Below, in pieces: positions 7,118-47,121 of a stretch of DNA of 51,720 bases; the first letter of the stretch is position 1, and every line of letters begins with the position of its first letter. This DNA is from Deltaproteobacteria bacterium (lineage in GTDB: Bacteria; Desulfobacterota; Binatia; UTPRO1), in the NCBI GenBank assembly GCA_029262315.1, contig JAJCZP010000245.1, positions 1 through 51,720 of the forward strand, in the 5' to 3' direction. Position numbers and translations under genes: made by a program. The notes beneath the pieces were generated by a model. It was not told the origin of the DNA and did not search any database. It worked only from the letters and a program-made list of their open reading frames with translations.

Positions 7118-7133
7118 AGCAACCGACGTGCCA
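7118..7133 (-). promoter_or_regulatory. Sigma-54 promoter of the TPR-kinase-regulator operon
   Basis: The minus strand reads TGGCACG-TCGG-TTGCT, a perfect match to the sigma-54 consensus TGGCACG-N4-TTGCW with correct spacing. The predicted transcription start is near 7107. It implies that the operon encoding a sigma-54 activator is itself sigma-54-dependent, either autoregulated or under another activator. Confidence 0.9.
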
Positions 7134-15066: not shown

Positions 15067-17844
15067 TCATGCGCCCTGCTGTAATCCTTCTCGTGTCGTC
15101 GCCCCTTCGAGACGCGCGAGCGCTTCGCGGACGTCCGGCAACTCCGCGACCGTCAAGACATGCCGGAGAAAGGCCGCCGCGAGATCGGGACGCTGTGCCC
15201 GGCCGCAAATTCCAGCGGCCCATTGCAGGACGAGGATGTCGCGCGGCCACTCCACGGGATCGTGCAGCAGGGGCAGGACCCCCGCGAGATCTCCGGCCAG
15301 CACACGTCGCTGCACCGCCACCAGGCGTCTCCACGACGCCGCCTCATCCGCCTCGCACGTTTCCGTCAGGCGGCGCGTGATCTCGCCCTGCACGACCTCA
15401 CTTCTGAGAAACCGGCCATGCTCGGCATAGATGATGTCCTCGTCCTCCAGATCACGGTGCGCCCAGCGCTCACGCAGGCGCCGCCCGTTGGCGGCATCGT
15501 GATCATGGCGCCCGGCAGACTGGCTCTCCAGATGCACCAGCGCACTGGCCGGCTGATACACGACACGGCCCCCGCGCTCCCTGATACGGAGACACAGATC
15601 GATGCCCCCGAAGCTGTTCCGAAACCCCTCATCGAAACCCTGCACGGCTTCGAACGCGCTTCGGCGCACGAGCACGCACGCGGCCGTCACCGCTTGAAGG
15701 TCCCGCCTGACGTTCACTTCGGCCGCGTCGGCGGGAAATCCCTGATACACATGGTACGGCATCCGGTGGAAGCGCGAGAACGCGACGCCGGCATGCTGAA
15801 TCGTACCGTCCGGGAAGAGCAGCTTGCTGCCGACCACCATCACCGACGCATCACGCTCGACCTCCTGGACGAGCGGCGCGAGCCAATTCGCCAGCGGAAT
15901 GGTGTCGTTGTTCAGGAAGACGAGATGGCGCCCGCGCGCCACGGCCGCCCCTTGGTTACAGGCGCGTTCGAAGCCCAGATTCCGCTCGTTGCGTAGGACC
16001 TGCACGTCGCCACCGAGGTGGGTCAGGAACTCCGCTGTCCCATCGGTCGATCCGTTGTCGATTACGATGACCTCGAAGTCGGGGGCATCCGTCACTTCCC
16101 CCAGCGCGGTCAGACACTGCATCGTCAATTCGACCTTGTCGAACACGGGAATGACGATCGAGCAGGCAAACGGCCCCTCCCCGGTGCACCGCACGACGCC
16201 GGAGCAATGCTCGACCGTGGGCAGCGACGCGGGTAGTGCGTCCGCGGCGCGCGGCGCGTAGCGCTCCAGGACGATCGCCGCCGTACGCTCGAAGTCCGCC
16301 GTTCGCTGGCTCGTCGTCGAGCTACCATCCGTTCGCCAGCTGAAGCCGCAGGTCACCTGCGGCACGTGCACGAAGTCGAACGCTTCGGAAAGGCGGATGA
16401 ACAGATCCCAATCCTCGTGTGTCGACAGCGTCTCATCGAAGAACCCGACACGGTCGAGGCAATCGCGGCGATGCATGAGACAGAGGATCGGAATGTAGTT
16501 GCCATGCCGCAGTTGCTCCCGATCAAACGGAACGCTGTAGGGAACGTCCATACCGCGGGTGACGTACGTCGTGCCCTGGGGCTCTTCGAGCACACGATGC
16601 GCATCCGAGTATGCGACCGCCCGATCGCCGCTCACCATCGCCTCGACCAACGTTTGAATGTGATGGGGGTGCAACCAGTCGTCGTCGTCGAGGTACGCGA
16701 GATACGTTCCCCGCGCGAGACGAATGCCGGCGTTGCGCGCCCCCGATCGCTCCAAGCGCTGCCCAAGCTGGACGTAGGTGATGTCGCCGCGTATGCGCAA
16801 CGACTGCACCACGTCAGCCACGTCTGATCCCGCATCGTTGACGACAATCGTCTCGACGTGCGGATAGGTCTGCCCGAGAACACTCTCCACCGCGCGGCGA
16901 AGCCACTCGGGACGATCCCGGGTCGGAATGATGACGGACACCAACGGAAGCTGCTCGGGCGTCGTCGCCCCCGCATCGGGAGGCCTGCTCGGCACCGGTG
17001 CCGCGTTTCCCGTCAGCACCGTGCCTCCGCGCGCGGGCGGCGCGGGCAACGACGCGCCCTCGGGTACCGGGACGACGTAGTGACCTCCGGGCGCTGGTCG
17101 CTCTCCCCACGACGGTGGCCAGTGCCGCTCGCGCGCCTGATCCGATTCCACGCGGGAAAGCTCCAGGTTCGAGTACTCGTTCCCGCCGGGAGCGAGTAGG
17201 TAGAGCCCGAGGACCTCGGGGACGTGTCGGAACTGCGCCCCGGCGGCCGCGAATCGCAAATACAGGTCGTAGTCGCCCGCCGTCACGTAGGCCGGATCGA
17301 AACCGCCCACATCCTCGTGAAGAGCCCGGCGCCACATGGGCTGCGGCCCGACGCAGCATACTTGAAAGAGATGCCGAGCGTCGAAGTCAGGCCAGTGGAA
17401 ATGCGCGGCCACCTCGCCCGACGCGTAGGCCTCGTCGAACGTCAAGTTCTCGGCATGCGTGATGGCGGCGTCTCCGTACGCGAGCCCAACATCCGGATTG
17501 GCCTCCAACAGCGCCGCAAGCTGCTCGAACGCGTCGTGTCGGTGCCGGTCGTCGGCTGACGTCGGCGTCACGTACGTGCCCTCCGCGAACGTCAGGGCGC
17601 GATTCATCGCAGCGAGAATGCCCTCGCGCTCGTCCGTGCGGGTGTAGACGATGTTGTCGTACCGCTGCTGAAACTCTTCGATGATCGCGCGCTCGTTCGT
17701 GGGCGACGCACTATCGACGATCACGATCTGCATCCGATCAGCGATCGTCTGGGCCTCCAGGTCTTCCAACAACCCACGCATGAACCGCTCGGCCTTGTAG
17801 ACCGTGCACAGCGCCGTCACGAGATACCGCGAGTTTTGACTCAT
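15067..17844 (-). CDS. Triple-domain GT2 family glycosyltransferase
   Basis: A 925-residue protein with three GT-A/GT2 modules. Module 1 (1 to about 245) has 'ALCTVYKAERFMRGLLEDLE' and 'SADDRHRHDAF'. Module 2 (from about 300) has 'VSVIIPTRDRPEWLRRAVES' and the metal motif 'YLDDDDW'. Module 3 (from about 560) has 'SIVIPVFDKVELTMQCL' and 'FLNNDTIP'. A helical tail of about 120 residues follows. The ATG overlaps the AKR stop (ATGA), so it is the last gene of the long glycan operon; its stop lies 22 nt before the fliC promoter. It probably builds a short oligosaccharide, either flagellin-linked or surface-attached. Confidence 0.9.
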   Translation of the reverse strand: MSQNSRYLVTALCTVYKAERFMRGLLEDLEAQTIADRMQIVIVDSASPTNERAIIEEFQQRYDNIVYTRTDEREGILAAMNRALTFAEGTYVTPTSADDRHRHDAFEQLAALLEANPDVGLAYGDAAITHAENLTFDEAYASGEVAAHFHWPDFDARHLFQVCCVGPQPMWRRALHEDVGGFDPAYVTAGDYDLYLRFAAAGAQFRHVPEVLGLYLLAPGGNEYSNLELSRVESDQARERHWPPSWGERPAPGGHYVVPVPEGASLPAPPARGGTVLTGNAAPVPSRPPDAGATTPEQLPLVSVIIPTRDRPEWLRRAVESVLGQTYPHVETIVVNDAGSDVADVVQSLRIRGDITYVQLGQRLERSGARNAGIRLARGTYLAYLDDDDWLHPHHIQTLVEAMVSGDRAVAYSDAHRVLEEPQGTTYVTRGMDVPYSVPFDREQLRHGNYIPILCLMHRRDCLDRVGFFDETLSTHEDWDLFIRLSEAFDFVHVPQVTCGFSWRTDGSSTTSQRTADFERTAAIVLERYAPRAADALPASLPTVEHCSGVVRCTGEGPFACSIVIPVFDKVELTMQCLTALGEVTDAPDFEVIVIDNGSTDGTAEFLTHLGGDVQVLRNERNLGFERACNQGAAVARGRHLVFLNNDTIPLANWLAPLVQEVERDASVMVVGSKLLFPDGTIQHAGVAFSRFHRMPYHVYQGFPADAAEVNVRRDLQAVTAACVLVRRSAFEAVQGFDEGFRNSFGGIDLCLRIRERGGRVVYQPASALVHLESQSAGRHDHDAANGRRLRERWAHRDLEDEDIIYAEHGRFLRSEVVQGEITRRLTETCEADEAASWRRLVAVQRRVLAGDLAGVLPLLHDPVEWPRDILVLQWAAGICGRAQRPDLAAAFLRHVLTVAELPDVREALARLEGATTREGLQQGA

Positions 17845-18971
17845 ACCGCTCCCCCCATCCCCACATCACCGTCGCGCACGAACGCCGGCATCGGATCGCC
17901 GAGACCACGCGCCAGCACCCACCCCCAGTACAGGACTTCGCCGTCGAGGAGCGCGTACCTGCGCTCTTCCCCACTCCCGGACATTGCCGCCAGCGGAAGC
18001 GGCTTCAGCGACTCGCCCCGCGCGAGACACTCAGCAACCGCCACCGGCGCCGGGACGAGATCCTGCACGTTCTGTCGCGCCTCGTCGGCCGTGCGGTAGA
18101 CACCCCGAACGTCGATACGCTCCGGAGCCACGTGCAGGATCCGCTGCGCAAAGCACTGCTCGAGATGGGCCAGGTCCGCGTCCTCGAGCCGCAGAGCGAT
18201 CGCACCGGCGTTCTCTGTCGTGTGCTGACGACTCGCAGCCTTCACGAGCGCGATGACCCCCGGACGTCGCAACACCCAGGCCACCATGATCTGAGCGACC
18301 GTACACTCGTACTTCGACGCGAGGCCTGCGAGCAGATCACGTCGTGGGCCAGCAACCATCCCGGCACCCCGATCGAGGACACTGTACGCCAGTGGCGTCA
18401 GGCCAGCCTCCTCACAGTACGGCAGCACGTCACTCTCGGCCGCGCGCTGAAACAAGTTGTACTCCACCTGCACCGAGACCAGCGGCAGATGCGAGGCGAG
18501 CCGCCGTGCGTGCTCGAGTTGCACCGAGGTCATATTGCCGAGCCCCACCCACCGCACTTTGCCGTCAGCCACCAGCCGGTCGAGGGCGGCCACCGTCTCC
18601 TCGAACGGAATCCGCGGCTCCGGCCAATGCAGCTGATAGAGATCGAGATAGTCGGTACGAAGTCGTCGCAAGCTCGCCTCGGCAGCGGCGAGAAGGGTCG
18701 CATAGCCACTGTGTTCCGGGTTGAACTTGCTTGCCAACACGACGCGGTCGCGGCGCCCAGCGATGGCGCGTCCCACCAGGTCCTCAGCGTGACCGCCGCC
18801 ATAGAGCTCCGCGGTATCGATCAGATTCATGCCGAGCTCGATCCCGTACTGCAGCACGGCGATCCGCTCGCGGTCTCGTTCCGACGACGCGTCCGACCAG
18901 GGACCGGTCTTGGTCGTCCCCTGTCCGATCGCCGACGCGAAGGCTCCTGTTCGCCCGAGCGGTCGCTCCAT
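17841..18971 (-). CDS. Aldo/keto reductase fused to ParB-like C-terminal domain (copy 1)
   Basis: A 376-residue protein. Residues 1 to about 285 are an aldo/keto reductase barrel: 'LGMNLIDTAELYGGGHAEDLVGRAI' gives the Asp and Tyr of the catalytic tetrad, 'VVLASKF' the Lys, and 'YLDLYQLHWPEP' the His. A tail of about 90 residues ('LKPLPLAAM', 'YALLDGEVLYWGWVLARG', 'PMPAFV') has the strand-helix pattern of the ParB/Srx N-terminal fold, but the 'GxRR' motif is changed to 'GEVLYWGW'. ATG 18971 is preceded by GGCGAGGG. A second such fusion lies at 23731-24867. Likely reduces a keto-sugar intermediate; the tail's role is unknown. Confidence 0.85.
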   Translation of the reverse strand: MERPLGRTGAFASAIGQGTTKTGPWSDASSERDRERIAVLQYGIELGMNLIDTAELYGGGHAEDLVGRAIAGRRDRVVLASKFNPEHSGYATLLAAAEASLRRLRTDYLDLYQLHWPEPRIPFEETVAALDRLVADGKVRWVGLGNMTSVQLEHARRLASHLPLVSVQVEYNLFQRAAESDVLPYCEEAGLTPLAYSVLDRGAGMVAGPRRDLLAGLASKYECTVAQIMVAWVLRRPGVIALVKAASRQHTTENAGAIALRLEDADLAHLEQCFAQRILHVAPERIDVRGVYRTADEARQNVQDLVPAPVAVAECLARGESLKPLPLAAMSGSGEERRYALLDGEVLYWGWVLARGLGDPMPAFVRDGDVGMGGAV

Positions 18972-18982
18972 GGTCCCTCGCC

Positions 18983-19402
18983 TCAGTCGAGCGCGATCTC
19001 CCACCCTTCGAGACCGTCCACGTCACAATTCGACTTGCGGAGCGCTGGATCCTCATCCCCGAACGCCTGGAGCAGCGCGTTCTTCATCTGATTCCGCAGG
19101 CCGTTCAGCTGATGCGCGAGTTTGAGATGATCCATGTAGCCGGCCTCATCCGTCTGCGCGCGGTCCTTCAAGGTCCAGATGTGGAGATTCATCTGCGCAA
19201 GCACGATCACCATGCGCAGCACGCGGGCCGTCAGTCGCGGCTGGCGCTCCTGGAGAATGGCATCAACATCCTGCATCAGCAGCTCCATCCGCTCCCGGTG
19301 GCTCTCGCCATCCGGTAACAGGACCTGCTTGATCTGATTGATCGTGATCTCGTCGACCAGGTCGGCGCAGGTCGGGAGAATGTGCCGAGCAGTCGTGCTC
19401 AC
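18983..19402 (-). CDS. Uncharacterised helical protein within glycan operon
   Basis: A 139-residue protein I do not recognise. It is helical throughout, with segments 'ADLVDEITINQIKQVLLP', 'RLTARVLRMVIVLAQMNLHI' and 'HLKLAHQLNGLRNQMKNALL', and no membrane span or catalytic motif. The GTG start at 19402 overlaps the stop of the upstream SDR gene (GTGA). It ends 11 nt before the AKR-ParB gene, so it is an integral operon member. A scaffold or regulator of the sugar pathway is possible, but nothing in the sequence shows it. Confidence 0.75.
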   Translation of the reverse strand: MSTTARHILPTCADLVDEITINQIKQVLLPDGESHRERMELLMQDVDAILQERQPRLTARVLRMVIVLAQMNLHIWTLKDRAQTDEAGYMDHLKLAHQLNGLRNQMKNALLQAFGDEDPALRKSNCDVDGLEGWEIALD

Positions 19403-20430
19403 GCGGTCGCCTCCGGCGGTCGGACGGCAGCGGTTTTCGGCGTCAATCCGCTCGTCCGCTCGGCCGCGGTCTCCCGATTGGCGCGATACCACGCCACCGT
19501 TCGCGCGATCCCTTCGACAAGCGGCGTCTGTGCCTCGAAGTCGAGCAGCCGCTGCGCGCGCTCGGTCGACATCAAACGCACGGGATCGCCCGACGGACCC
19601 GCCGGGTCCCAGCAGATCTCCGGCGGCGTCGGCATGGCCGCCGCAATGGTCTCCGCCACTTCGCGAATGGTACACGCGCGGCCACTCCCAAGATTGATGG
19701 GCGTACACACCGGCCCCCGCTCCATCGCCGCGAGCATACCGTCCGCGACATCCTCGACGTAGATGAAGTCGCGCACGACTCCACCGTCGCCCCATACGCG
19801 CACCGGATTCTCACCGTCCAGCATGCGGCGAATGAGCGCGGGGATCACCTGCGCCGTCGCCGCATCGAAATCGTCATGCGGACCGTACACGTTTGCGGGT
19901 CGCACGATCCGCGGGGCCTGCCAGTCGTACTCGTGGAGGTAGGTCTCCGCCTGAACCTCGGCGACACGCTTGGCGATCCCCGCGTACCGATCGTTCTGGC
20001 GCGGGAGGCCGTTCCAAAGGTTGTCTTCGCAGTGCAGTGAGGAGGGGGGATACGCGCAGATACTGCTCACCACCAGGTAGCGCTCGGCACCCGCCCGATA
20101 CGCGGCATCCATCATATGCGTGTTGAAGAGGAGCATGGGCACGAAGTAGCTCGCCGCCCGCGACACGCCGATGCCCACCGAGCCCTTGATACCGACGAGA
20201 TTGAACACGTGCTCCTGTCCGCTCGCCACCGCACGGCATGCCTCGGGATCGGTCAGATCAGCTTGGATGAACTCGACCTCGTCGCCAAACAGCGCGCGCA
20301 CCCTCTCGGGTGGGTCGAGCGCCGCGACCGTCACACGGCTGCCGCGCGCCAGTAGCTTCCGCACGAGAGCGATACCGATCGTCCCGGTTCCACCGGTGAC
20401 GAGCACCCGCCGTTCTCGATAGAACGACAC
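19399..20430 (-). CDS. Extended SDR sugar-nucleotide epimerase/dehydratase-like protein (SDR-1)
   Basis: A 343-residue extended SDR. It begins with the NAD(P)-binding motif 'VLVTGGTGTIGIALVRKLLARG'-type glycine loop (TGGTGTIG) and contains 'VVSSICAYPPS' and 'NVYGPHDDFDAATAQVIPAL'. The expected YxxxK catalytic pair is altered: the Lys of 'AGIAKRVAEVQAETY' is preceded by Tyr at one extra position (Yx4K). The GTG at 20430 follows the SDR-2 stop by one base. It is closely related in layout to the genes at 20432 and 21947, so these look like successive duplications. Likely acts on an NDP- or GDP-linked keto-sugar; exact reaction unknown. Confidence 0.88.
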   Translation of the reverse strand: MSFYRERRVLVTGGTGTIGIALVRKLLARGSRVTVAALDPPERVRALFGDEVEFIQADLTDPEACRAVASGQEHVFNLVGIKGSVGIGVSRAASYFVPMLLFNTHMMDAAYRAGAERYLVVSSICAYPPSSLHCEDNLWNGLPRQNDRYAGIAKRVAEVQAETYLHEYDWQAPRIVRPANVYGPHDDFDAATAQVIPALIRRMLDGENPVRVWGDGGVVRDFIYVEDVADGMLAAMERGPVCTPINLGSGRACTIREVAETIAAAMPTPPEICWDPAGPSGDPVRLMSTERAQRLLDFEAQTPLVEGIARTVAWYRANRETAAERTSGLTPKTAAVRPPEATA

Positions 20431-20431
20431 C

Positions 20432-21439
20432 TCAGGCCACCGCCGCGGCTTCTGGGCCGTCCTGTTGGGTCTGCTGCTGGGCACGGTACCACGCGATCGT
20501 TCGCGCAAGTCCATCGGGCAATGAGATCCGAGGTTCGAACGCGAGTCGGTCACGCGCCATCGTCGTACTCATCAACCGCACCGGAATCGTGCTCGGCCGC
20601 GACGGATCGAACCGCACATCCGCATCCTCGAAACCATCCACCACGAGCAGCGTCTCGAGGACCTCACGGACGGCATGCCCCTGCCCCGACGCGATATTGA
20701 TCGCGAGGTAGTCCTCCGGGTCGGCAAAGGCGCGCATCAGGCCCTCGATGAAGTCATCGACATAGAGGAGGTCGCGCACGTCCTCGCCGGTGCCCCAGAC
20801 CTCGAGCGGATCGTGACGCTCGACCACTCGGCGAAGCAGCGCGGCCGTAACATGCGACGTCGCGAAGTCGAACTTGTCGTGCGGCCCGTATACGTTGGAA
20901 GGCCGCACGACGACCGTGCTCATCGCAGGCCGCACACGGCGCGCGTACGTTTCGCACAGAATCTCAGCGTAGCGCTTCATCCACGCGACCGGGTGATACG
21001 TTGGGTAGGGTTCCCCCGCAAACATCTCCCCCTCCTCCACCGGACGCTCGTCGGTGGGCGGATACGCCGCGCCGCTGCTGATGAAGAGAAACCTCGTAAC
21101 GCCGGCCGCGTGTGCGGCGTCGAGCAACTGCGCATTCATGACGACGTTCGGCGTCACGTGCACCAATGGCGTCTTCACCATCACCGCAGCGCCAGATGTG
21201 TTCGCGGCGCAGTGGAAGACGTAGTCGACGCCATCGACCGCCCGAGCACAGTCCTCGGGCCGCGTCAGGTCGGTCGTCACGTACTCGACCGTGGGATCCA
21301 CCTTCCCTGGCTGGCTGCGATGGACCGTCGCCCGCACCCGCGCGCCCTCACTCCGCAAGCGCGCGATCACGTTCGTCCCGATGAATCCAGCTCCGCCAGT
21401 CACGAGGACGTGCGCGCCCGCGAGCCGTCGATCAGACAT
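20432..21439 (-). CDS. Extended SDR sugar-nucleotide enzyme (SDR-2)
   Basis: A 335-residue extended SDR with cofactor loop 'VLVTGGAGFIGTNVIARL', 'FHCAANTSGAA', 'FISSGAAYPPTDE' and 'RPSNVYGPHDKFDFATSHV'. It resembles GDP-L-fucose synthase or UDP-glucose 4-epimerase-like proteins. In the active-site segment 'YHPVAWMKRYAEILCETY' the residue four before Lys is Val, not Tyr. ATG 21439 has AAGGAGA upstream and overlaps the rmlC-like stop (ATGTCTGA). Co-translation with SDR-1 and the epimerase indicates one pathway. Confidence 0.88.
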   Translation of the reverse strand: MSDRRLAGAHVLVTGGAGFIGTNVIARLRSEGARVRATVHRSQPGKVDPTVEYVTTDLTRPEDCARAVDGVDYVFHCAANTSGAAVMVKTPLVHVTPNVVMNAQLLDAAHAAGVTRFLFISSGAAYPPTDERPVEEGEMFAGEPYPTYHPVAWMKRYAEILCETYARRVRPAMSTVVVRPSNVYGPHDKFDFATSHVTAALLRRVVERHDPLEVWGTGEDVRDLLYVDDFIEGLMRAFADPEDYLAINIASGQGHAVREVLETLLVVDGFEDADVRFDPSRPSTIPVRLMSTTMARDRLAFEPRISLPDGLARTIAWYRAQQQTQQDGPEAAAVA

Positions 21440-21947
21440 GGCAATCTCCTTGATCGCGTCGCGACAGGACCGGCGTCTGGGTCGGCCACCAGATCCCAAG
21501 GCGTGGATCGTTCCACAGCAAGGTAAACTGGCCGGCGCGCTCGTACTCGGTCGACTGCTTGTAGTGAAAGATCGCCTCTTCGCTGAGCACCAGGTGTCCA
21601 TTGCCGTGCTTGGGCGGCACCAGCACCTGCAGGCGATTGCGCTCCGAGAGGGTGAAACCCTCCCACGCACCGCGCTGTGGCGACTCGGGATCCCAATTCA
21701 CCACGACCAGGTAGAACTGGCCATGCAGACACGAGATCAGCTTCCAGGTGTGGTCGTCACCGTGAATGCCGCGAAGCACGTGGCGCGACGACACCGAAAT
21801 GTCGTCCTGAATGAAGTCGACGTCGATGCCGGCCTCGCGGTAGAGACGGCGGTTGTACGTCTCGATGTACGCCCCACGGAAGTCCTCGAATACCGTCGGT
21901 GGCTCGATGACGAGGACGCCCTCGAGGCTCGTGTGCTGGACCCGCAT
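21432..21947 (-). CDS. RmlC-like sugar-nucleotide 3- or 3,5-epimerase
   Basis: A 171-residue cupin of the dTDP-4-dehydrorhamnose 3,5-epimerase family. Family features are 'EDFRGAYIETYNRRLYREAG', 'DDISVSSRHVLRGIHGDDHTWKL' with the catalytic-type His, 'FYLVVVNWDPES' and 'VLVPPKHGNGHLVLSEEAIFHYKQS'. The ATG shares one base with the SDR-3 stop (TGATG). With a heptose kinase and GMD-like dehydratase in the same operon, it may epimerise a GDP-4-keto-6-deoxyheptose at C3/C5 as in Campylobacter heptose pathways; a dTDP substrate cannot be excluded. Confidence 0.88.
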   Translation of the reverse strand: MRVQHTSLEGVLVIEPPTVFEDFRGAYIETYNRRLYREAGIDVDFIQDDISVSSRHVLRGIHGDDHTWKLISCLHGQFYLVVVNWDPESPQRGAWEGFTLSERNRLQVLVPPKHGNGHLVLSEEAIFHYKQSTEYERAGQFTLLWNDPRLGIWWPTQTPVLSRRDQGDCHV

Positions 21948-22939
21948 CACGCACTCTCCCGAAAGTAGTTTGCCTTCTGCTCGTGCTCTCCCCGATGAGC
22001 CAGATACCACTCCCAGGTGGCGCGCAGGCCGTGATACAGCGACGTCGCAGGGGCGTATCCGAGCTGGGCCCGGGCGGCATCGATGTTCATCACCCGGCGC
22101 GCGAATCCCGACGGCTTGCTCGCATCGAACTCGTAGTTGAACGGCACGACGGTCGCGAGCGTCTCGACCAGCTCTCGAATCGTGGTCCCACACCCGGTCC
22201 CGAGATTCACAGGGTCGCCGTCGGTACCACGCAGGAGGGCCAGCACGATGCCGGCCGCCACGTCCCCGCTGTACGCGAACTCGCGGACCGCGCTTCCGTC
22301 GCCCCACACGACGAGCGGATCCTCTCCCGACGCGATCCGCGCCATCAAGGCGGGGATCACCATGGCGTTGGCCGGATCGAAGTTGTCTCCAGGACCGTAC
22401 ACGTTGGTCAACCGAACGACCGCGAAAGAGCGGAGATCGTATTGCGCGCGATAGGCGCGAATCTGAAGCTCGCCCATGCGCTTGGCCCAACCCGGAAACT
22501 CGTCCATGGGCGGACCGTCCCATGCGTCGGCCTCGTGAAAGACCTCGCGGCTGGGATACGCGCCGATCGAGCTGGTGTAGACGAGACGCGCGACGCCGTT
22601 CTGACGACTCGCCTCGAGCACGTTGGTGTTCATCATGAGCAGGGGCACGAGAAAGCTTGCCGGCTTGCGCGTGGTCACCGCCACCGAGCCCTTGATCCCG
22701 GCCACATGGAAGACAAAATCCATGCCTTCGGTCACGCGCGAGCAGAAACCCAGGTCGGTCAGGTCGCCGCGCACGTATTCCGCCTCCGGGTGCGGCCGGA
22801 CGTCGTCCAGCGACACCACACGCACCTGCCCGCCCCCGGCAATGACGAGATCGACGATCTGCCGCCCGACCATGCCCGTCCCGCCAGTCACCAGGACCCG
22901 CTTGCCGCGGAAGTTCTCCAACACGTCTCGATCCAGCAT
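21947..22939 (-). CDS. Extended SDR sugar-nucleotide enzyme (SDR-3)
   Basis: A 330-residue extended SDR with 'VLVTGGTGMVGRQIVDLVI', 'VFHVAGIKGSVAVTTRKPAS', 'YTSSIGAYPSREVF' and 'LTNVYGPGDNFDPANAMVIP'. It is closest in the window to SDR-1 (shared 'GIKGSV' and 'IPAL' blocks). The active-site helix reads 'FPGWAKRMGELQIRAY': Pro at the canonical Tyr position and Phe one before it. ATG 22939 is backed by GAGAGGAGCGAGG. A longer reading frame upstream overlaps the methyltransferase and is not used. Confidence 0.88.
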   Translation of the reverse strand: MLDRDVLENFRGKRVLVTGGTGMVGRQIVDLVIAGGGQVRVVSLDDVRPHPEAEYVRGDLTDLGFCSRVTEGMDFVFHVAGIKGSVAVTTRKPASFLVPLLMMNTNVLEASRQNGVARLVYTSSIGAYPSREVFHEADAWDGPPMDEFPGWAKRMGELQIRAYRAQYDLRSFAVVRLTNVYGPGDNFDPANAMVIPALMARIASGEDPLVVWGDGSAVREFAYSGDVAAGIVLALLRGTDGDPVNLGTGCGTTIRELVETLATVVPFNYEFDASKPSGFARRVMNIDAARAQLGYAPATSLYHGLRATWEWYLAHRGEHEQKANYFRESA

Positions 22940-22950
22940 CCTCGCTCCTC

Positions 22951-23709: not shown

Positions 23710-23730
23710 CCCACCTCCCGTCGGGTGCGC

Positions 23731-24867: not shown

Positions 24868-25850
24868 GCCCGCACCTCCGTTCCTGCCCTCGCCATGCCC
24901 GGCGTGCGATCGCGACGCGCCGACCCATCGGCCTGCAGCACGCGGACAATGCCCGCAGCGTCGATCCCGGCCACCCGCTCCGCTCCGGCTCGGCCGGTCG
25001 CGCCCAGATACACGTCATCGTTCAGCGAGAGTCGACGAAACGTCGGGTTCACTCCCTCGTCGGCGATCAGTTCGGCCACCAACGAGCCCAGTCCTCCCAC
25101 ACTCGAATGCTCCTCGACCGTCACCACGAGCGGGGCCGCCCGAAGCAACGGTCGAAGCAAGCTTTCGGGCACTGGCTTCAAGCGAAAGCAGTCGACCACC
25201 GTCGCGTCGACACCCGAGTCGCGCGCATGGGCTGCCGCCGTCACCGCGCGCCCGACTGAACACCCGGTCGCAATGACGAGCGCATCCTTCCCCGTCGCGA
25301 GCACACGTGCACCCGCACCGAGCTCGGCGGCGGAGAGCGTGGCGTGCGGTTCAGGAGCCTCCTTGTCCATTCGGATGAATGCCGGCCCCCGGGCCGCGGC
25401 CGCTTCGTATACGACGGCGCCGGCCGTCATCCCGTCGGCCGGGTTGTAGACAGTCATCCCGGGGAGCGCGCGCAGCAGTCCGATGTCGTAGATCCCGTGA
25501 TGGGTCGGCCCATCTGCACCGTACGAAAGACCACTCCCGACACCGAGTCCGATGACGGGAAGCCGATGGGCACACACGTCCAGGCGCAGCTGCTCATAGC
25601 ACCGAGCTGTCACGTGGGAGAGAATTCCGTAAGTGAACACTAGGTTCCCGCCGAGGGCCAACCCTGCCGCGACCGAGATCATGTTCTGCTCGGCGATCCC
25701 GACATTGATGACCTGCGCTGGCCGCGTAGCACGCAGCGCATCGAGCCCGAGGGCACCCATATCGTTGGTGAGCACGAACACGCGCGGATCCTGCGCCGCA
25801 CGCTGCGCAATCGCGTCGAACACCGCGTCGCGTGGATCCAAACCGGCCAT
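24864..25850 (-). CDS. Transketolase, C-terminal subunit
   Basis: A 328-residue transketolase pyrimidine-binding plus C-terminal domain. The TPP-activating Glu is in 'VINVGIAEQNMISVAAGLAL'. Further family blocks are 'SYGADGPTHHGIYDIGLLRALPGMTVYNPAD' (in part) and 'VVTVEEHSSVGGLGS'. The start shares one base with the stop of the N-terminal subunit (TGATG), which fixes stoichiometric co-translation. Split transketolases of this kind are common in secondary and surface-sugar clusters, where they move two-carbon ketol units. Here the acceptor is probably a sugar of the glycan pathway (inference). Confidence 0.9.
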   Translation of the reverse strand: MAGLDPRDAVFDAIAQRAAQDPRVFVLTNDMGALGLDALRATRPAQVINVGIAEQNMISVAAGLALGGNLVFTYGILSHVTARCYEQLRLDVCAHRLPVIGLGVGSGLSYGADGPTHHGIYDIGLLRALPGMTVYNPADGMTAGAVVYEAAAARGPAFIRMDKEAPEPHATLSAAELGAGARVLATGKDALVIATGCSVGRAVTAAAHARDSGVDATVVDCFRLKPVPESLLRPLLRAAPLVVTVEEHSSVGGLGSLVAELIADEGVNPTFRRLSLNDDVYLGATGRAGAERVAGIDAAGIVRVLQADGSARRDRTPGMARAGTEVRA

Positions 25851-26677
25851 CAGCTCACCCCTTCGAGCGCGTGGACCAGCTGGGACCTGGCCTCGTCGAT
25901 CTCTGATCCGCGCGGCATGCGATGGTGCCAGGATTCGGACGATTCCATGAAGCTGACGCCCTTCCCTTTGATGGTCTCCGCGATCACGACTCGTGGCGGT
26001 CCGCTGCGGCCGCGCGGCAGGTCGTCGCACGCCGTCTGGAGCGCGCCGATATCGTGACCATCAACCTCGCGAACGTCCCACCCGACCGCCCGCCACCGAT
26101 CAGCGAACGGCTCGAGCGCGGAGCTACGCTCAGTCGATGTCGTGGCACCCAGACGATTGCGGTCGACAATGGCGAGCAGATTGCCGAGCCGATGATGGCT
26201 CGCGAACGCCGCGGCCTCCCAGATCGACCCTTCATGACATTCTCCATCGCCGAGTACGGTCGCGGCGATCCACTCGGCACCCTCGTGCCGTGCGCTGAGC
26301 GCCAACCCCGCGGCGAGTCCCAATCCATGGCCCAACGAGCCAGACACGACCTCCACACCCGGAAGCAGTGGATCCGGATGCCCCGCGATCCGGCTGCCAT
26401 CGCGGGCAAAGGTGGCGAGCTCGCTCGACGGAAAGAACCCCAGATCAGCCAGGAGCGCGTACAACGTGAGACAGCCATGCCCTTTGCTGAGTATGAATCG
26501 GTCACGGGCAAGCCAGGCTGGATCGCCGGGACGCACGCGTAGCACTCCCCCATGGAAGAGCGTCACGCCGATCTCCACCCAGGAGAACGCTGGTGGCACG
26601 TGCCCCTTGCCGGCGGCAAGCGCCGTCTCCATCACCTGTAGGCGAACAGCTGCCGCCTTCTGCTCCAGCGCGTCCAC
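25850..26677 (-). CDS. Transketolase, N-terminal subunit
   Basis: A 275-residue TPP-binding half. It has 'RDRFILSKGHGCLTLYALLA', 'GSLGHGLGLAAGLALSAR' and the TPP/Mg motif beginning 'GDGECHEGSIWEAAAF' and ending about 30 residues later in 'DRN'. It begins with GTG 3 nt after the methyltransferase stop. It pairs with 24864-25850 to make one functional enzyme. Full-length housekeeping transketolase is about 650 residues; the split form and operon location argue for a dedicated biosynthetic role. Confidence 0.9.
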   Translation of the reverse strand: MDALEQKAAAVRLQVMETALAAGKGHVPPAFSWVEIGVTLFHGGVLRVRPGDPAWLARDRFILSKGHGCLTLYALLADLGFFPSSELATFARDGSRIAGHPDPLLPGVEVVSGSLGHGLGLAAGLALSARHEGAEWIAATVLGDGECHEGSIWEAAAFASHHRLGNLLAIVDRNRLGATTSTERSSALEPFADRWRAVGWDVREVDGHDIGALQTACDDLPRGRSGPPRVVIAETIKGKGVSFMESSESWHHRMPRGSEIDEARSQLVHALEGVS

Positions 26678-26680
26678 GAA

Positions 26681-27694
26681 TTAGCTTCCCCGACGTGGGC
26701 GCCACGCGAGGCTCACCCATCCATCGTGATAGAGGCTCCCAAGATGCTTCTTCACGTGCAGGATCTCGACCTGCCCGCGTTGCTCGAGCGCGCGCAGCTC
26801 CGAGAGGTAGCCCCGCAGGTACCCGCGCTTCTCGGCATAGCGTGCCGCCACGAAATCGAAGAGGGATTCCGGATCGTAGAGTTCGTGCACCGGCTCGAGA
26901 TGCACGCACATCGCGGGATTCGCCGCGCGTAGATAGTCGAGCATCGGTCCGAACGATGTCCCGAGCTGCTCCAATGCACCGAAGGTCACGATCCCCGCGT
27001 CGGGCGCGACCGCGCAACTCGTATCGGGGTGCAGCATGTCGAATCGCCGGCCCGCGATATCGAGGTCCAGCGTACTCGACACCTTGGCGAGGACCTTCTG
27101 CGAGGCCGTCGCCCAATCGAGCCCGGTATACGACCGATCCGGACGGCTCTGCGCGAACGCCACCAGGTTGTGCCCTGGGCCGCACCCAAACTCGTAGACG
27201 CTCCTCACGTCACGAAGAAACGTCTCGCTGAACCACGCCTGCATCACGCGCACGAAGTCCGCTTCGAACGTTCCGGCCTTCGGCCGCACATACTCGCCAT
27301 CGAGGCGCACGATCCGCCGCTCGGGCCTCAGGTAGTGCGGCCACAACTCCTCTGGCCGACCGCCCGATGCTTCGAACCGTGCCAACACATCCCCCCAACC
27401 GTTCTCCCACGCCTCGATGCGTGCCGGCCCTGCGACGGAGAGGTCCCCCTCGAGCGCCTGGAGCACCCCGAGCACGATGGCGTCTCGCGCCCGGCCGCCC
27501 AACACCTCGTAGTCGAAGTCCGCCGCATGAATGATCTCTCGACACCGCGCCGGCACGCTCTCGGGCGTTATCCCGAGGAGCGACGCGAAGCCCTCGATGT
27601 CGAGCGTGCGCGTCTCGCCTTCACGCGGCGCGCCACATTCGTCTACGCCCGCCGGGCGCGCGTTCCGTTCAACTTCCCGTTCCAGCCCGTGCAC
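26681..27694 (-). CDS. Class I SAM-dependent methyltransferase
   Basis: About 337 residues. Motif I is 'VYEFGCGPGHNLVAFAQS' in the middle of the protein, followed by 'YTGLDWA', 'FDMLHPD' and 'IVTFGALEQLG'. About 150 N-terminal residues precede the catalytic domain. The GTG at 27694 is chosen for its GGGGAGAGG site; it overlaps the preceding kinase gene by 26 nt. A much longer upstream frame lies inside that kinase and is not real. Likely a sugar O-, N- or C-methyltransferase of the glycan pathway; substrate unknown. Confidence 0.8.
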   Translation of the reverse strand: MHGLEREVERNARPAGVDECGAPREGETRTLDIEGFASLLGITPESVPARCREIIHAADFDYEVLGGRARDAIVLGVLQALEGDLSVAGPARIEAWENGWGDVLARFEASGGRPEELWPHYLRPERRIVRLDGEYVRPKAGTFEADFVRVMQAWFSETFLRDVRSVYEFGCGPGHNLVAFAQSRPDRSYTGLDWATASQKVLAKVSSTLDLDIAGRRFDMLHPDTSCAVAPDAGIVTFGALEQLGTSFGPMLDYLRAANPAMCVHLEPVHELYDPESLFDFVAARYAEKRGYLRGYLSELRALEQRGQVEILHVKKHLGSLYHDGWVSLAWRPRRGS

Positions 27695-28766
27695 TGATCC
27701 TCTCCCCTCGCACCCGCCGTCCCACCGTCGCGCGCGGCGCCTTTTGCGGCCGCTTCTCCAACGTCGGAGCTTCGCTCCACGATCCGTAGTGAATGATGCG
27801 ACTCCCCTCGTGCTCGAACGCGAAAGGCACATGGAGATACCCCTGCAGCGCGCGCAGCACCGCCTCACGCCGGCGTGGAGGCACGTAGAACACCATGAAC
27901 CCTGAGCCGCCCGCGCCGAGCAACTTGCCGCCGAGCGCACCGTGCTTCATCGCTTTCTGATAGACGTCCTCGACCACCAGGCTCGCCACGCGTGAGCTGA
28001 GCTGGCGCTTCAAACTCCAGGTCTCGTGCAGAAGCGCCCCGAATGCATCGATGTCGGTATCCGATGCGAGGATCTGCACTCCCTCGTCGACCATGGCGCG
28101 CATACGACGCACCACGGCCCGCCGCTCGGACAGATTCGCCACGACGTCCGCCGCCACCTCCGAAGCCAGGCGGCTGGTGCCCGTGTAGAACAGAAGCAAT
28201 CGTTCCTGCAGATCAGCGATTCGCGTGGGGGCAACGGTGACGGGATCGACGATGATCTCGCCGCCCTGCTGAAACTCGATGCGGTTCAGTCCGCCGTATG
28301 CCGCCGCCACCTGGTCCTGCGAGCCGACGTTGTCTCCCATGCGCTCCTGCTCGAGCTCGATCGCCTTCCGTGCCAACTCCTGCTTGCCGATCATCTGCCC
28401 GCGAAACGCTGTCAGTGCTTGAATCAGGCCCACAGCGAAGGACGAGCTCGATCCCATACCGGCCCGCGCAGGCAGATCGCCCTGATGGTGAATCTCGAGG
28501 CCGACCGAGTCGTCGAATTCGAGAAATCGCATACCTTCACGCACGGTCGGGTGCAGAATCTCGGCCACGGTCGACACGGTCTCGACGTGTGACCAGACGA
28601 CCCGGTGCTTGGTCGTGAAGAACGGCGGCAAATGCCGCACGGTCAGGTAGCAGTACTTGTCGATCGTCGTCGACAGTACCGCGCCGCCTTCAGCGCGATA
28701 CCACGCCGGATAGTCACTGCCGCCGCCGAAGAACGACAGCCGATATGGGGCTCGCGCAATGATCAT
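27669..28766 (-). CDS. hddA: GHMP kinase, D-glycero-D-manno-heptose-7-phosphate kinase-like
   Basis: A 365-residue GHMP kinase. The N-terminus 'IIARAPYRLSFFGGGSDYPAWY' and the ATP loop 'PARAGMGSSSSFAVGLIQAL' are characteristic of the HddA/fucokinase-like branch, and 'KLLGAGGSGFMVFYV' is motif 3. HddA phosphorylates heptose 7-phosphate at C1 en route to GDP-heptose. A C-terminal extension of about 35 basic residues overlaps the next gene. ATGA overlap with the upstream GMD-like gene. With the nucleotidyltransferase at 31779 it forms a likely kinase/guanylyltransferase pair; a related sugar kinase remains possible. Confidence 0.83.
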   Translation of the reverse strand: MIIARAPYRLSFFGGGSDYPAWYRAEGGAVLSTTIDKYCYLTVRHLPPFFTTKHRVVWSHVETVSTVAEILHPTVREGMRFLEFDDSVGLEIHHQGDLPARAGMGSSSSFAVGLIQALTAFRGQMIGKQELARKAIELEQERMGDNVGSQDQVAAAYGGLNRIEFQQGGEIIVDPVTVAPTRIADLQERLLLFYTGTSRLASEVAADVVANLSERRAVVRRMRAMVDEGVQILASDTDIDAFGALLHETWSLKRQLSSRVASLVVEDVYQKAMKHGALGGKLLGAGGSGFMVFYVPPRRREAVLRALQGYLHVPFAFEHEGSRIIHYGSWSEAPTLEKRPQKAPRATVGRRVRGERISARAGTGS

Positions 28767-29743
28767 GCGGCCAGTGTCAGCGGGTCCCGCAGCCGACTGC
28801 GATGATACTCGAGAAGATCTTCCAGGGTCTGCTCGAGCGGTATCTCCGGGCGCCACCCTGTGGCCGTACGGAACTTGCTCGTGTCGGGCACCTGCAGTGT
28901 GACATCCGATGGCCGCACCAGCGCCGGATCCACCTCGTGGGCGATCGGACAGGTAGCCATGCCCTTCAGCAGCTCGAGCATCTGACCGACCGTCATCGTG
29001 CGGTCGCCGCCGACGTTGTACACCTCACCTGCTGGGCACTTCTCCAGAAGCAGCCAGTACGCGCGTACCGCATCACGGACGTCTGCGAAGGTGCGCACAC
29101 TGTCCAGGTTTCCGACCCGAAGTGGCGGCACCATGACGCCGGCCTCGATCTCGGCGATCTGCTTGGCGAACGCACTCTCGGCGAAGACATCACCACGCCG
29201 TGGCCCGGTGTGCGTGAACATGCGCGTGCGAACCGTACGGATGCCGTACGAGAGAAAGTACTGGCGCGCCACCATGTCCTCGCCGACCTTCGACACCGCG
29301 TAGGGGCTCGCTGGACGAAACTCGTTGGTCTCCCGGATCGGTAGCTCGCCTTCAGCGACCTGCCCGTACACCTCGGACGAGCTACAGATGTGAATTTTCG
29401 GATCCTGCTTCGTGATCCGCACCGCGTCGAGCAGGTTCGTCGTGCCGATCACGTTGGTGTGCATGGTGTCGGCCGGAGCAACGAAGCTCGCGGACACGTA
29501 CGACTGTGCCGCCAGATGGAATATCCAGTCTGGGCGCACCGTCTCGAGAAGACGGACGAGCGAGTGCAGGTCGCGCAGCTCGGCTTCGTGCAGGAAGACA
29601 CGATCGCGACATTCACGAATGTTCACGAGCGGGCTGCGCCAGCGCACGAGTCCGTGCACCTCGACGTCCGGATGCTCCCGCAGCACGTACTCGGCCAGGT
29701 GGCTTCCCACCATGCCGGTGATGCCAGTGATTAGAATCCGCAT
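28763..29743 (-). CDS. GDP-mannose 4,6-dehydratase-like SDR
   Basis: A 326-residue extended SDR. It has 'ILITGITGMVGSHLAEYVL', 'DWIFHLAAQSYVSASFVAP', 'ICSSSEVYGQV' and an intact YxxxK in 'ASPYAVSKVGEDMVARQYF', followed by 'TRMFTHTGPRRGDVFAES'. This is the pattern of GDP-mannose (or GDP-heptose) 4,6-dehydratases, which make a 4-keto-6-deoxy sugar. The ATG at 29743 has GGGGGAG upstream. Beside an HddA-like kinase, GDP-heptose is a plausible substrate. Confidence 0.88.
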   Translation of the reverse strand: MRILITGITGMVGSHLAEYVLREHPDVEVHGLVRWRSPLVNIRECRDRVFLHEAELRDLHSLVRLLETVRPDWIFHLAAQSYVSASFVAPADTMHTNVIGTTNLLDAVRITKQDPKIHICSSSEVYGQVAEGELPIRETNEFRPASPYAVSKVGEDMVARQYFLSYGIRTVRTRMFTHTGPRRGDVFAESAFAKQIAEIEAGVMVPPLRVGNLDSVRTFADVRDAVRAYWLLLEKCPAGEVYNVGGDRTMTVGQMLELLKGMATCPIAHEVDPALVRPSDVTLQVPDTSKFRTATGWRPEIPLEQTLEDLLEYHRSRLRDPLTLAA

Positions 29744-29753
29744 GGGCTCCCCC

Positions 29754-30851
29754 TCAAAACGGTCCTTTGAAACGCTTGTAGACATCGGCCATCGACGCAT
29801 CGTCGGGGAGCGGCACGTCGCGCCCCTCCCGGCCCAAGACCAGTGTCGCCAACTCTTGCGTCAACCGACGCAGGTTGGGATAGAATTCGTCCTCCAAGAC
29901 TTTGGCGGTCGGACACGGCGCCGGCGCCATCCCGAGCGTCACCACCGGCGCGGTGAGCGCCATCGGCATGCGCTCGCATACGATCCGGCAGATCTCCGCG
30001 CAGACGCCGTAGGCCTTCCATGACGTATCGGCGACCAGCAATCGGCCCGTACGCTCGACGCTTTCCATGATCACCCGCGTGTCGGGATGCGACACGCAGT
30101 TCAGGTCGATAACCTCGATCTCGATGCCGGCGTGCTGCGCGAGATGGTCCGCTGCGCGCAGTGCCTCGAGGACCATGATCGAGGTCGCCACCACCGTCGC
30201 GGCACCGCCCCGACGCACGACCCGCGCCCCCAGCGGGGTATCACCCGTCGCCGCGGCCTCGGCACCAACCCGGAAGTTCACGTCGTACAACAGGCGATGC
30301 TCCAGGCTGATGACGGGACCTCGATGATGCTCGATGATCCACGGATAAGTCTGCAAGATGGCATCGGCGCTCGCGGGGGCGAGGACGAGCAACCCCGGCA
30401 CGTGCGCGAACATCGACTGCAGGCTCTGCGAGTGCTGCGCCCCCTGGCCCCAGCTGCGCCCGATGATCATGCGGACCAACATCGGAACCTCGAACCGTCC
30501 ACCGAACATGTAGCGGTACTTGGCCGCGAGATTGACGATCTGGTTCATCGCCAGTAGTGCGAAGTCCACTCGAATGTGTGTCTGAATCGGATAGAGGCCG
30601 TTCAGCGCCGCGCCGACGGCAATTCCCGTCATGCCCTCCTCGGCGAGCGGTGTATCCATCACCCGCCCCGCGCCGAATTCCTCGGCCAGCCCGAGCGTGG
30701 ATCCGAACGTCCCCTTGTGATCGTCGACACCCTGCCCGAGAATCACGACGTTCGGATCACGCGTCATCGCGTCATGCATGGAGCGATGCAGCGCATCCCG
30801 ATAGGTGCAGACGGCCCCGAGGTCGTCGTTGAGCTTGTGAGCGACCCCCAT
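29754..30851 (-). CDS. TPP-dependent dehydrogenase E1 component, beta subunit
   Basis: A 365-residue E1-beta-like protein. It has 'YRDALHRSMHDAMTRDPNVVILGQGV', the TPP Glu region 'DTPLAEEGMTGIAVGAALNGL', 'HSQSLQSMFAHVPGLLVLAP' and the C-terminal 'LLVADTSWKAYGVCAEI'. It starts one base after the E1-alpha stop. No lipoyl E2 or E3 gene is in this operon. In several deoxysugar clusters a similar E1 pair transfers a two-carbon acyl unit to a keto-sugar, which fits the surrounding genes better than central metabolism (inference from context). Confidence 0.88.
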   Translation of the reverse strand: MGVAHKLNDDLGAVCTYRDALHRSMHDAMTRDPNVVILGQGVDDHKGTFGSTLGLAEEFGAGRVMDTPLAEEGMTGIAVGAALNGLYPIQTHIRVDFALLAMNQIVNLAAKYRYMFGGRFEVPMLVRMIIGRSWGQGAQHSQSLQSMFAHVPGLLVLAPASADAILQTYPWIIEHHRGPVISLEHRLLYDVNFRVGAEAAATGDTPLGARVVRRGGAATVVATSIMVLEALRAADHLAQHAGIEIEVIDLNCVSHPDTRVIMESVERTGRLLVADTSWKAYGVCAEICRIVCERMPMALTAPVVTLGMAPAPCPTAKVLEDEFYPNLRRLTQELATLVLGREGRDVPLPDDASMADVYKRFKGPF

Positions 30852-30852
30852 G

Positions 30853-31782
30853 TCAGGCCACGTCCGCGAGCAGCGCATCGCTGCTCGGCCACGGACTCGC
30901 CTCGGCGAAGGCCACGGCGTCGTCGATCTCAGCGGCAATCTCAGCCGTCCACCGCGCAACGAGGTCGGCCTCGCAACACAACGGATCCCGGCGCTTCCAC
31001 TCCGCCGCTACCTCGGCCGAGCGATAGCCGGCCGCATAGTCCTCCCCGACCCCTACGTGCTCCATGTAGCGCTCCGTCTTGCACTCGACCAGGACAGGCC
31101 CCTCGCCCGTGCGGACCTTGCTGACCGCGTCAGCGAGCACCGCGCGCACGGCCATGAAGTCGTAGCCGTCCTCGCACACCGCAACGTTGATGCCGTAACC
31201 CCGCGCGTGCTCCGCGATACCGAACGCCTGCCGCGCCTCGCGTGGCGAATGCACAGCTAGCCCGTTGTTCTCACACAACAACACGACGGGCAGTCGATGC
31301 AGCGCCGCGAAGTTGAGTGACTCGTGATAGACCCCCTGCTCGGTCGCGCCATCCCCGAAGACCGCCAAAGCAACCTGATCGAGCTTGCGGTGCCGCGCGG
31401 CGAGTGCCGAGCCCACGGCATGCGGGATCGTACTCGCCACCACCGCCGATGCGCCCATGAAGCCGACCTCGGGCGCGGCGAGGTGCATCGACCCCGCTTT
31501 GCCGCCGCCGCAGCCGGTCGCCTTGCCGTACAACTCGGCGAACATGGCGCGCATGTTGCCGCCCTTCGCCAGGTAAAATGCATGACCGCGGTAGGTGCCA
31601 AAAACGAGATCCCGGGCCGCCAGCGCGTCACACGCACCAACAGCGACGGCTTCCTGTCCGATGGATAGGTGAACCGGGCTCTGAATCTTGTCCGACGGAT
31701 ACAGCGCGATGATCCGCTCTTCGACGAGTCGAATGCGGAGCGCGGCGTGAAACAACCGTTCGTACGTATCAGCAACGCTCAT
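30853..31782 (-). CDS. TPP-dependent dehydrogenase E1 component, alpha subunit
   Basis: A 309-residue E1-alpha-like protein. It has 'SIGQEAVAVGACDALAARD', 'GKATGCGGGKAGSMHLAAPE' and the TPP motif starting 'FGDGATEQGVYHESLNF' and closing with 'CENNGLAVHSP'. The ATG overlaps the nucleotidyltransferase stop (ATGA). It forms a heterotetrameric E1 with the next gene. It is shorter than mitochondrial-type E1-alpha and like bacterial acetoin/branched-chain E1-alpha. Substrate unknown. Confidence 0.9.
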   Translation of the reverse strand: MSVADTYERLFHAALRIRLVEERIIALYPSDKIQSPVHLSIGQEAVAVGACDALAARDLVFGTYRGHAFYLAKGGNMRAMFAELYGKATGCGGGKAGSMHLAAPEVGFMGASAVVASTIPHAVGSALAARHRKLDQVALAVFGDGATEQGVYHESLNFAALHRLPVVLLCENNGLAVHSPREARQAFGIAEHARGYGINVAVCEDGYDFMAVRAVLADAVSKVRTGEGPVLVECKTERYMEHVGVGEDYAAGYRSAEVAAEWKRRDPLCCEADLVARWTAEIAAEIDDAVAFAEASPWPSSDALLADVA

Positions 31783-32537
31783 GAGGCCACTCCATAGGCA
31801 CGGAGCGAGGCGTTGCTCCGTGAAGTCATTGCGCGCAGCTCCTCTTCGGCGGCCGCGTAGGATCGTGGCGTGCCGATATCGAGAAACCCCCCACGGGTCG
31901 GAAACGCGTCCAGCCCTTTGGCAATCCAGGCCGGCAGCACTTCCGACTCCAATGACACCGCGCGGCCGGTATCGATCGCGCGGAGTTGCGCGCGACCAAC
32001 GACATAGATCCCGGCGTTGATCCACCCAGGACTCGGCTCGCCCGTCTTTTCGCGAAAGGCGCGCACTGCGTGCTCCGCGTCCATCTCCACCCGCCCGAAG
32101 CGGCCTGCGTCCGGCACCTCGGCCACGACCATGGTTGCCGCCGGTCCGCGTTGCTGATGGCGTGCCCACAACTCTCGGAGATCGACCTCGCAGTAGGAGT
32201 CGCCGTTCAGGACCAGCACGGGATCCGCATCGAAACGGTCCGCCGCCAAACGCAAGGCGCCGCCGGTCCCTGCAATCTCGTCTTCGTGCGAATACTCGAG
32301 CGCGAGGGCGCCGTAGCGATCGCCGATGAGCGCGCGCACTTCCTGCCCGCGATACCCCGTGCACAAGACCACGCGCGCGACGTCGGCGGCCTCGAGCCGA
32401 TCGAGGAGATACGTGAGAAACGGTCGGCCACCGACGTCGGCCACCACCTTCGCCCGATCGTGGACGGCTGGGGCCAATCGAGTTCCACGGCCACCCACCA
32501 ACACCAGGGCAGTTCCGCATCGCGCACGTCGAGCCAT
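31779..32537 (-). CDS. Sugar-phosphate nucleotidyltransferase (HddC/RmlA-like)
   Basis: A 252-residue NTP-transferase. The signature loop is 'LVLVGGRGTRLAPAVHDRAKVV', then 'GRPFLTYLLDRLE', 'VLVLNGDSYCEVDLRELW' with the metal Asp, and 'INAGIYVVGRAQL'. Length and 'GGFLDIGTPRSY' near the end are like HddC, which makes GDP-D-glycero-D-manno-heptose, the step after HddA. The guanyl versus other nucleotide specificity cannot be read. First gene of the 17-gene glycan operon; the ATG has only a weak ribosome site, and a rare or leader-dependent start is possible. Confidence 0.85.
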   Translation of the reverse strand: MARRARCGTALVLVGGRGTRLAPAVHDRAKVVADVGGRPFLTYLLDRLEAADVARVVLCTGYRGQEVRALIGDRYGALALEYSHEDEIAGTGGALRLAADRFDADPVLVLNGDSYCEVDLRELWARHQQRGPAATMVVAEVPDAGRFGRVEMDAEHAVRAFREKTGEPSPGWINAGIYVVGRAQLRAIDTGRAVSLESEVLPAWIAKGLDAFPTRGGFLDIGTPRSYAAAEEELRAMTSRSNASLRAYGVAS

Positions 32538-47115: not shown

Positions 47116-47121
47116 GCCTGA

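Follow-up and report, generated by a model that had tools for sequence, protein, structure and literature searches.

In this study, a putative glycan operon was analyzed in a 51,720-nucleotide stretch of DNA from a Deltaproteobacteria bacterium (contig JAJCZP010000245.1, positions 1 to 51,720), hereafter termed the window. The operon precedes the flagellin gene fliC and contains two thiamine diphosphate (ThDP) enzyme systems, an E1 alpha/beta pair and a split transketolase. Open reading frames were reconstructed anew, and families were assigned by Pfam/NCBIfam profile searches and matches in the Protein Data Bank (PDB). A previous sequence-only reading had described a tight minus-strand run of 17 genes, which is borne out here: the run spans 15067-32537, is 99.7% coding, has gaps of -26 to +21 nt between neighboring genes, and displays coding-frame GC content at third codon positions (GC3) in each of the 17 genes. 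In the list below, NT denotes the nucleotidyltransferase, SDR a short-chain dehydrogenase/reductase, MT a methyltransferase, TKN and TKC the transketolase halves, AKR an aldo-keto reductase and GT a glycosyltransferase.

31779-32537 (-): NT, sugar-1-phosphate nucleotidyltransferase, HddC-like (Pfam NTP_transferase, 1.6e-30)
30853-31782 (-): E1 alpha, ThDP 2-oxoacid dehydrogenase-type pair, putative sugar carboligase (Pfam E1_dh, 6e-60)
29754-30851 (-): E1 beta, partner of E1 alpha (Pfam Transket_pyr/Transketolase_C)
28763-29743 (-): SDR1, GDP-heptose 4,6-dehydratase-like
27669-28766 (-): GHMP kinase, heptose-7-phosphate kinase (HddA/WcbL)-like (PDB 3k85, 4.5e-42; also 4usk)
26681-27694 (-): MT1, class-I S-adenosylmethionine-dependent methyltransferase (model pLDDT 90; Foldseek matches to O-methyltransferases)
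25850-26677 (-): TKN, split transketolase N-terminal half (PDB 6yak split transketolase, 2e-58)
24864-25850 (-): TKC, split transketolase C-terminal half with altered phosphate site (PDB 6yaj, 5e-45, and residue comparison)
23731-24867 (-): AKR2, aldo-keto reductase with ParB-like C-terminal tail (Pfam Aldo_ket_red, 7e-55)
22951-23709 (-): MT2, TylF-like methyltransferase (weak Methyltransf_24/TylF matches)
21947-22939 (-): SDR2, GDP-fucose-synthase-like reductase (NCBIfam Fcl, 1.6e-47, below cut-off)
21432-21947 (-): RmlC-type 3,5-epimerase, GDP-4-keto-heptose epimerase-like (PDB 7ang/7an4/7m14/8db5, 7e-35 to 1e-33)
20432-21439 (-): SDR3, GDP-fucose-synthase-like reductase (NCBIfam Fcl, 1e-45, below cut-off)
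19399-20430 (-): SDR4, GDP-fucose-synthase-like reductase (NCBIfam Fcl, 3e-41, below cut-off)
18983-19402 (-): 139-aa protein of no family
17841-18971 (-): AKR1, second aldo-keto reductase with ParB-like tail, 42% identical to AKR2
15067-17844 (-): three-domain GT2 glycosyltransferase (Pfam Glycos_transf_2 in three stretches)

The profile searches recovered the families previously named, namely the E1 pair, split transketolase, GHMP kinase, nucleotidyltransferase, four SDRs, RmlC-type epimerase and three-domain GT2. Both supposed AKR fusions are aldo-keto reductases whose C-terminal extensions are real and ParB-like in appearance. The two proposed methyltransferases fall under the Pfam cut-offs: MT1 is probably a methyltransferase, its model displaying a confident class-I fold, while MT2 is suggested by the weak matches listed, and its copies in relatives are 58-72% identical. 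The 139-aa protein had no significant Pfam/NCBIfam match and has a 50% identical copy in one relative (L032); a 54% identical copy of the three-domain GT2 occurs in another genome (L046).

The E1 pair retains the ThDP motif GDG-NN together with E71 and H140 of the beta subunit, while its loops have consistently diverged from those of pyruvate dehydrogenase (PDH). When 84,980 named genomes were scanned, 80 relatives were obtained. In the tree, the E1 beta of the window falls within a clade of 31 rows with 100/100 support, drawn from at least eight phyla. Its nearest rows are Myxococcota, which makes this the probable phylum of the host; the assembly yielded no 16S gene. Gene neighborhoods were counted in the 25 clade loci of 12 kb or more, where the SDR1 dehydratase is present in 22, the kinase in 21, the nucleotidyltransferase in 18, MT1 in 16 and SDR3 in 15. 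The neighborhood comparison proposed by the sequence-only reading therefore reveals a core of E1, kinase and dehydratase that recurs in at least eight phyla. The same reading had allowed that the pair might always accompany E2/E3 in relatives; neither E2 nor E3 was found at any of the 80 loci of E1-pair relatives, including the 25 clade loci. The pair displays features of E1-type (aKADH2) carboligases, namely an intact ThDP motif, the catalytic Glu and His, and a position among nucleotide-sugar genes without E2/E3. The operon E1 pair is absent from the five family relatives, while the set occurs in one distant member of the phylum, a patchy distribution from which horizontal transfer is inferred.

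Pairs with the aKADH2 layout are documented or proposed to add pyruvate-derived two-carbon branches to the keto-sugars of antibiotics (PMC4425429, PMC12247030). AviB1/AviB2, Pau11/Pau12, KbDH and the aldgamycin system likewise place an alpha/beta E1 pair amid nucleotide-sugar genes, with no E2/E3 (PMC4425429, PMC12247030), a likeness in gene layout. The paulomycin system resembles the operon further, since its E1 pair is also accompanied by an AKR, the ketoreductase Pau7, which reduces the acetyl branch (PMC4753412). However, the antibiotic carboligases act on sugars of secondary metabolites, whereas here the setting is GDP-heptose and a surface or flagellar glycan, with conservation across at least eight phyla. 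The YerE-type ThDP flavoenzymes of yersiniose synthesis are similar in that they add a two-carbon branch to a CDP-4-keto-deoxyhexose in O-antigen, but belong to another ThDP superfamily (decarboxylase/acetohydroxyacid synthase (AHAS)-like) and use a CDP-hexose. By analogy with the antibiotic pairs, the E1 pair is probably a C2-branching enzyme.

Two further arrangements of E1 pairs were observed. In a second group (L062-L111, L006, L007 and L009), a DegT-family gene follows E1 in 22 of 35 loci of 12 kb or more; this group is often located near heptose genes and probably relates to a different branched sugar. In a Marinimicrobia locus (L042; 18552-20288 and 14813-16690), two E1 pairs, a split transketolase, an AHAS/YerE-like ThDP enzyme, the only AHAS-like gene seen, and a B12 radical SAM protein share one cluster, bringing together three kinds of ThDP enzyme.

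The nature of the sugar backbone is indicated by several enzymes. The best match of SDR1 is GDP-heptose 4,6-dehydratase (7us5, 5.9e-83, versus 4e-44 for GDP-mannose dehydratase), and both share the distinctive motifs RWxxPxxNI and THxGPRRxDVF, which places SDR1 with the GDP-heptose-type 4,6-dehydratases. The RmlC-type protein is nearest to an epimerase group of which several members are annotated for GDP-4-keto-heptoses, 7m14 and 8db5 being annotated for GDP-heptoses, and the GHMP kinase is nearest to heptose-phosphate kinases. SDR2-4 match GDP-fucose synthase best, under its cut-off, as expected for C4-reductases. Direct counterparts of the 4,6-dehydratase, 3,5-epimerase and C4-reductases and, by family relationship, of the kinase and guanylyltransferase constitute the GDP-6-deoxyheptose toolkit of the Campylobacter jejuni capsule (PMC10680097, PMC10440746). 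In contrast to the operon, those pathways are described without an E1 pair, transketolase or tailed AKR, and the product enters the capsule. The operon lacks genes for the isomerase (GmhA) and the phosphatase (GmhB): GmhA is encoded elsewhere in the host genome (C223), while GmhB was not pinned down among 13 HAD matches there. In L042 and L043, GmhA and a nucleotidyltransferase-GmhB fusion are located inside the same cluster, and the presence of GmhA and GmhB in the clusters of relatives supports a heptose substrate. Taken on homology, a GDP-heptose backbone is likely. An E1/heptose cluster including GmhA and GmhB was also observed in a Pelagibacteraceae genome of 1.1 Mb in which no flagellin was found (L060). 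Two other products were considered and rejected: a 3,6-dideoxyheptose would require a pyridoxal phosphate-dependent C3-dehydratase, assumed to be of the DegT family, which is absent from the operon and present in 1 of 25 clade loci, and nonulosonic acid would require a NeuB-type gene, absent among the 17 and seen only in the Marinomonas island described below.

The closest solved relative of TKN and TKC is the C. hydrogenoformans split transketolase (6yak, 6yaj). Compared with E. coli TktA, in which the roles of the numbered residues are well established, H26, H66, H100, H261, E411, D469 and H473 are all kept. Among the phosphate anchors, R358 is conserved, S385 and H461 have been substituted, and R520 is mostly K, whereas a second, full-length transketolase in the host keeps all four. 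The operon enzyme therefore resembles an ordinary transketolase in its catalytic and ThDP residues but not in its sugar-phosphate anchors. Hydroxyacetyl branching by split transketolases beside keto-sugar pathways has been proposed for the Streptomyces nucleoside antibiotics miharamycin and amipurimycin but not shown in vitro, and the 13 putative split-transketolase cases reviewed are all from Streptomyces (PMC12247030); here, the setting is Gram-negative surface-glycan operons with an E1 pair. By this analogy, a role as second branching enzyme is conceivable at somewhat less than even odds, with lower certainty than for the E1 pair. The AKR tail is present in all five complete loci with both transketolase and AKR that were checked (L032, L034, L040, L049 and L151) and in none of eight transketolase-less loci with an AKR, the latter being largely of one lineage and so representing few independent events. 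We infer that the transketolase and the tailed AKR are coupled. The ParB-like reading of the tail is based on secondary structure and a sub-threshold ParB_N match in one relative, and the matched rows of the whole-model structure comparison cover mostly the AKR barrel. Fusion of a ParB-like domain to an AKR C-terminus (23731-24867 and 17841-18971) was seen only beside split transketolase.

The system reaches past position 15067. The last gene of the operon is separated by 168 bp from the start of fliC, and further flagellar and glycosyltransferase genes come after fliC on the same strand:

14077-14898 (-): fliC, flagellin, probable acceptor (Pfam Flagellin_N/C)
12274-13662 (-): fliD (Pfam FliD_N/C)
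11845-12246 (-): fliS (Pfam FliS, 3e-33)
9400-11190 (-): glycosyltransferase, DUF3880/Glyco_trans_1_2, with weak Maf N-terminal match (Maf-like GT)
7766-9403 (-): GT9 (heptosyltransferase family) glycosyltransferase (Pfam PF01075, 4e-33)

The operon had been said to end at the fliC promoter; the adjacency holds, while a promoter within the 168-bp gap is plausible. No sigma-70-like site was found there. A candidate sigma-54 site 5' of the operon (TGGCACG-N3-TTGC at ~32567) has a spacer one base short and was not counted. In two Nitrospirota (L033/L034), the order is flgK-flgL-fliW, E1 operon, giant GT2 protein, GT9, Maf-like GT, GT9, fliC, fliD, with flgK and fliW verified in L034. Copies of the Maf-like GT with 36-38% identity and homologues of the window GT9 are located beside fliC in these Nitrospirota. 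Moreover, Marinomonas aquimarina, Catenovulum maritimum and an Alteromonadaceae bacterium have flagellin genes ~17-28 kb from the operon, sharing its contig and strand; the Marinomonas region also carries Maf and NeuB. Sugar and glycosyltransferase genes are thus contiguous with flagellin genes, and this is conserved in other species, as in a flagellin glycosylation island. No flagellin was seen adjoining the operon in L040, L036 or L046, the L040 flagellin being on a different contig (60,910 versus 55,449 bases), and adjacency is not claimed for these three. Judged from gene order, flagellin is the likely destination in the host organism.

Two features lie outside this system. An exact sigma-54-type promoter match, TGGCACGTCGGTTGCT (7118-7133, -), is located directly 5' of an 828-aa open reading frame (4617-7103); a histidine kinase gene (3748-4620) comes next, and a role in flagellar regulation is possible. 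Divergent from the operon, 32925-37313 (+) encodes a large protein of secreted appearance that carries long TPTPTATATP-type repeats and CGDGVLEGGEICDD-like motifs.

Our preferred interpretation, with a probability of about 0.6, is that the operon makes at least one GDP-activated heptose, at least one of them with a two-carbon branch, for O-glycosylation of flagellin; the probabilities given in this text are judged and not calculated. Gene content, families, operon structure and neighborhood conservation can be read directly from the sequence; the substrates throughout, the branching by the E1 pair and transketolase above all, and the attachment to flagellin are predictions. Dehydration by SDR1 would yield GDP-6-deoxy-4-keto-heptose. 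The E1 pair, acting without E2/E3, would decarboxylate pyruvate and deliver the hydroxyethyl-ThDP carbanion to the sugar ketone, resulting in a 4-C-acetyl tertiary alcohol. In lineages having a split transketolase, this enzyme may likewise transfer a hydroxyacetyl unit to a keto-sugar, after which its partner, the tailed AKR, would reduce the new ketone. The RmlC-type epimerase and GDP-fucose-synthase-like SDRs would act on 4-keto intermediates by epimerization and reduction, with an unbranched heptose as a probable second product. MT1 and MT2 would perform O-methylation, and GT2, GT9 and the Maf-like GT would assemble the glycan on flagellin. Homology and neighborhood conservation across phyla support three elements of the sequence-only reading, namely a heptose backbone, methylation and delivery to flagellin; the branch that it envisaged is predicted from enzyme-family precedent (AviB1/AviB2, Pau11/Pau12, KbDH; PMC4425429, PMC12247030). 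A more far-reaching proposal, that the two independent ThDP carboligases place acetyl and hydroxyacetyl branches on GDP-heptoses to give nine-carbon flagellin sugars widespread across phyla, is tentative and rather less probable than not.

Several points weigh against this interpretation. The activities of all operon members are predicted. The kinase and nucleotidyltransferase score well under the NCBIfam equivalog cut-offs (HddA 153 bits, cut-off 600; HddC 117 bits, cut-off 300), and the exact sugar is therefore open. Three Fcl-like C4-reductases are superfluous for a C4-branched sugar; the branch may instead be located at C3, or the operon may produce a branched and an unbranched sugar side by side. 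The transketolase occurs in no more than 7 of the 25 clade loci, and its role might be just to provide sedoheptulose-7-phosphate. Furthermore, no flagellin gene was found in 5 of 14 relatives tested (L060 Pelagibacteraceae, L055 Reyranella, L058, L042 and L032), indicating that the sugar is not exclusively flagellar but serves other glycans too.

Alternative explanations were weighed. Possibly only linear 6-deoxyheptoses are made, the split transketolase supplying sedoheptulose-7-phosphate for GmhA and the E1 pair having a precursor or acyl-donor role off the sugar ring. Transketolase is the usual source of sedoheptulose-7-phosphate, and the enzyme encoded inside this heptose operon, with all catalytic residues kept and the C. 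hydrogenoformans split transketolase as closest solved relative, would suit such a role. However, the host already has a full-length transketolase, the kinase is far more frequent in the clade than the operon transketolase (21 versus 7 of 25 loci), the phosphate anchors S385 and H461 are replaced, and across phyla the E1 pair is co-transcribed with keto-sugar enzymes without adjacent E2/E3; we consider this explanation unlikely.

A surface polysaccharide (lipopolysaccharide or capsule) as destination, with the fliC adjacency incidental, would accord with the E1 clade in the five flagellin-less relatives and with the three loci in which no adjoining flagellin was seen. Yet in both the window and two Nitrospirota, the operon directly adjoins flagellar genes, together with corresponding GT9 and Maf-like GTs, and Maf, NeuB and flagellins occur together in the Marinomonas region. 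This destination appears still somewhat less probable than linear heptoses. Very improbable, finally, is a catabolic or PDH/acetoin-type E1 unrelated to sugar. The pair is homologous to PDH E1, and a lipoyl E2 located ~14 kb away (45856-47241) might serve it from elsewhere, but that gene is not co-operonic, and the host has separate PDH-type and 2-oxoglutarate dehydrogenase E1 genes (PDH-type E1 alpha on contig C21). An ordinary PDH or acetoin dehydrogenase would have E2 and E3 encoded with E1; an ordinary PDH was rejected on their absence from the neighborhoods of the 80 relatives and on a tree position far from PDH, and the loop motifs also differ.

Within the open-licence literature, no paper describing the gene set of the operon was found, in agreement with the earlier statement that no such pathway is described, and there was no report of E1-type sugar branching in a GDP-heptose or flagellar pathway; nor did any description turn up of a homologous cluster that makes an ordinary O-antigen sugar. 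As far as checked, the parts are of known kinds, while their combination, the heptose and flagellar setting and the spread across phyla are new. According to a 2025 review, no putative ketone-accepting transketolase has been characterized in vitro (PMC12247030), and the operon provides direct candidates for this missing assay; carriers include a cultured strain, Marinomonas aquimarina CECT 5080. E1-type and split-transketolase branching has been documented or only proposed for antibiotic sugars, and the operon suggests its use in the flagellar and surface glycans of many phyla, predicting that flagella bear branched heptoses of a class not yet reported.

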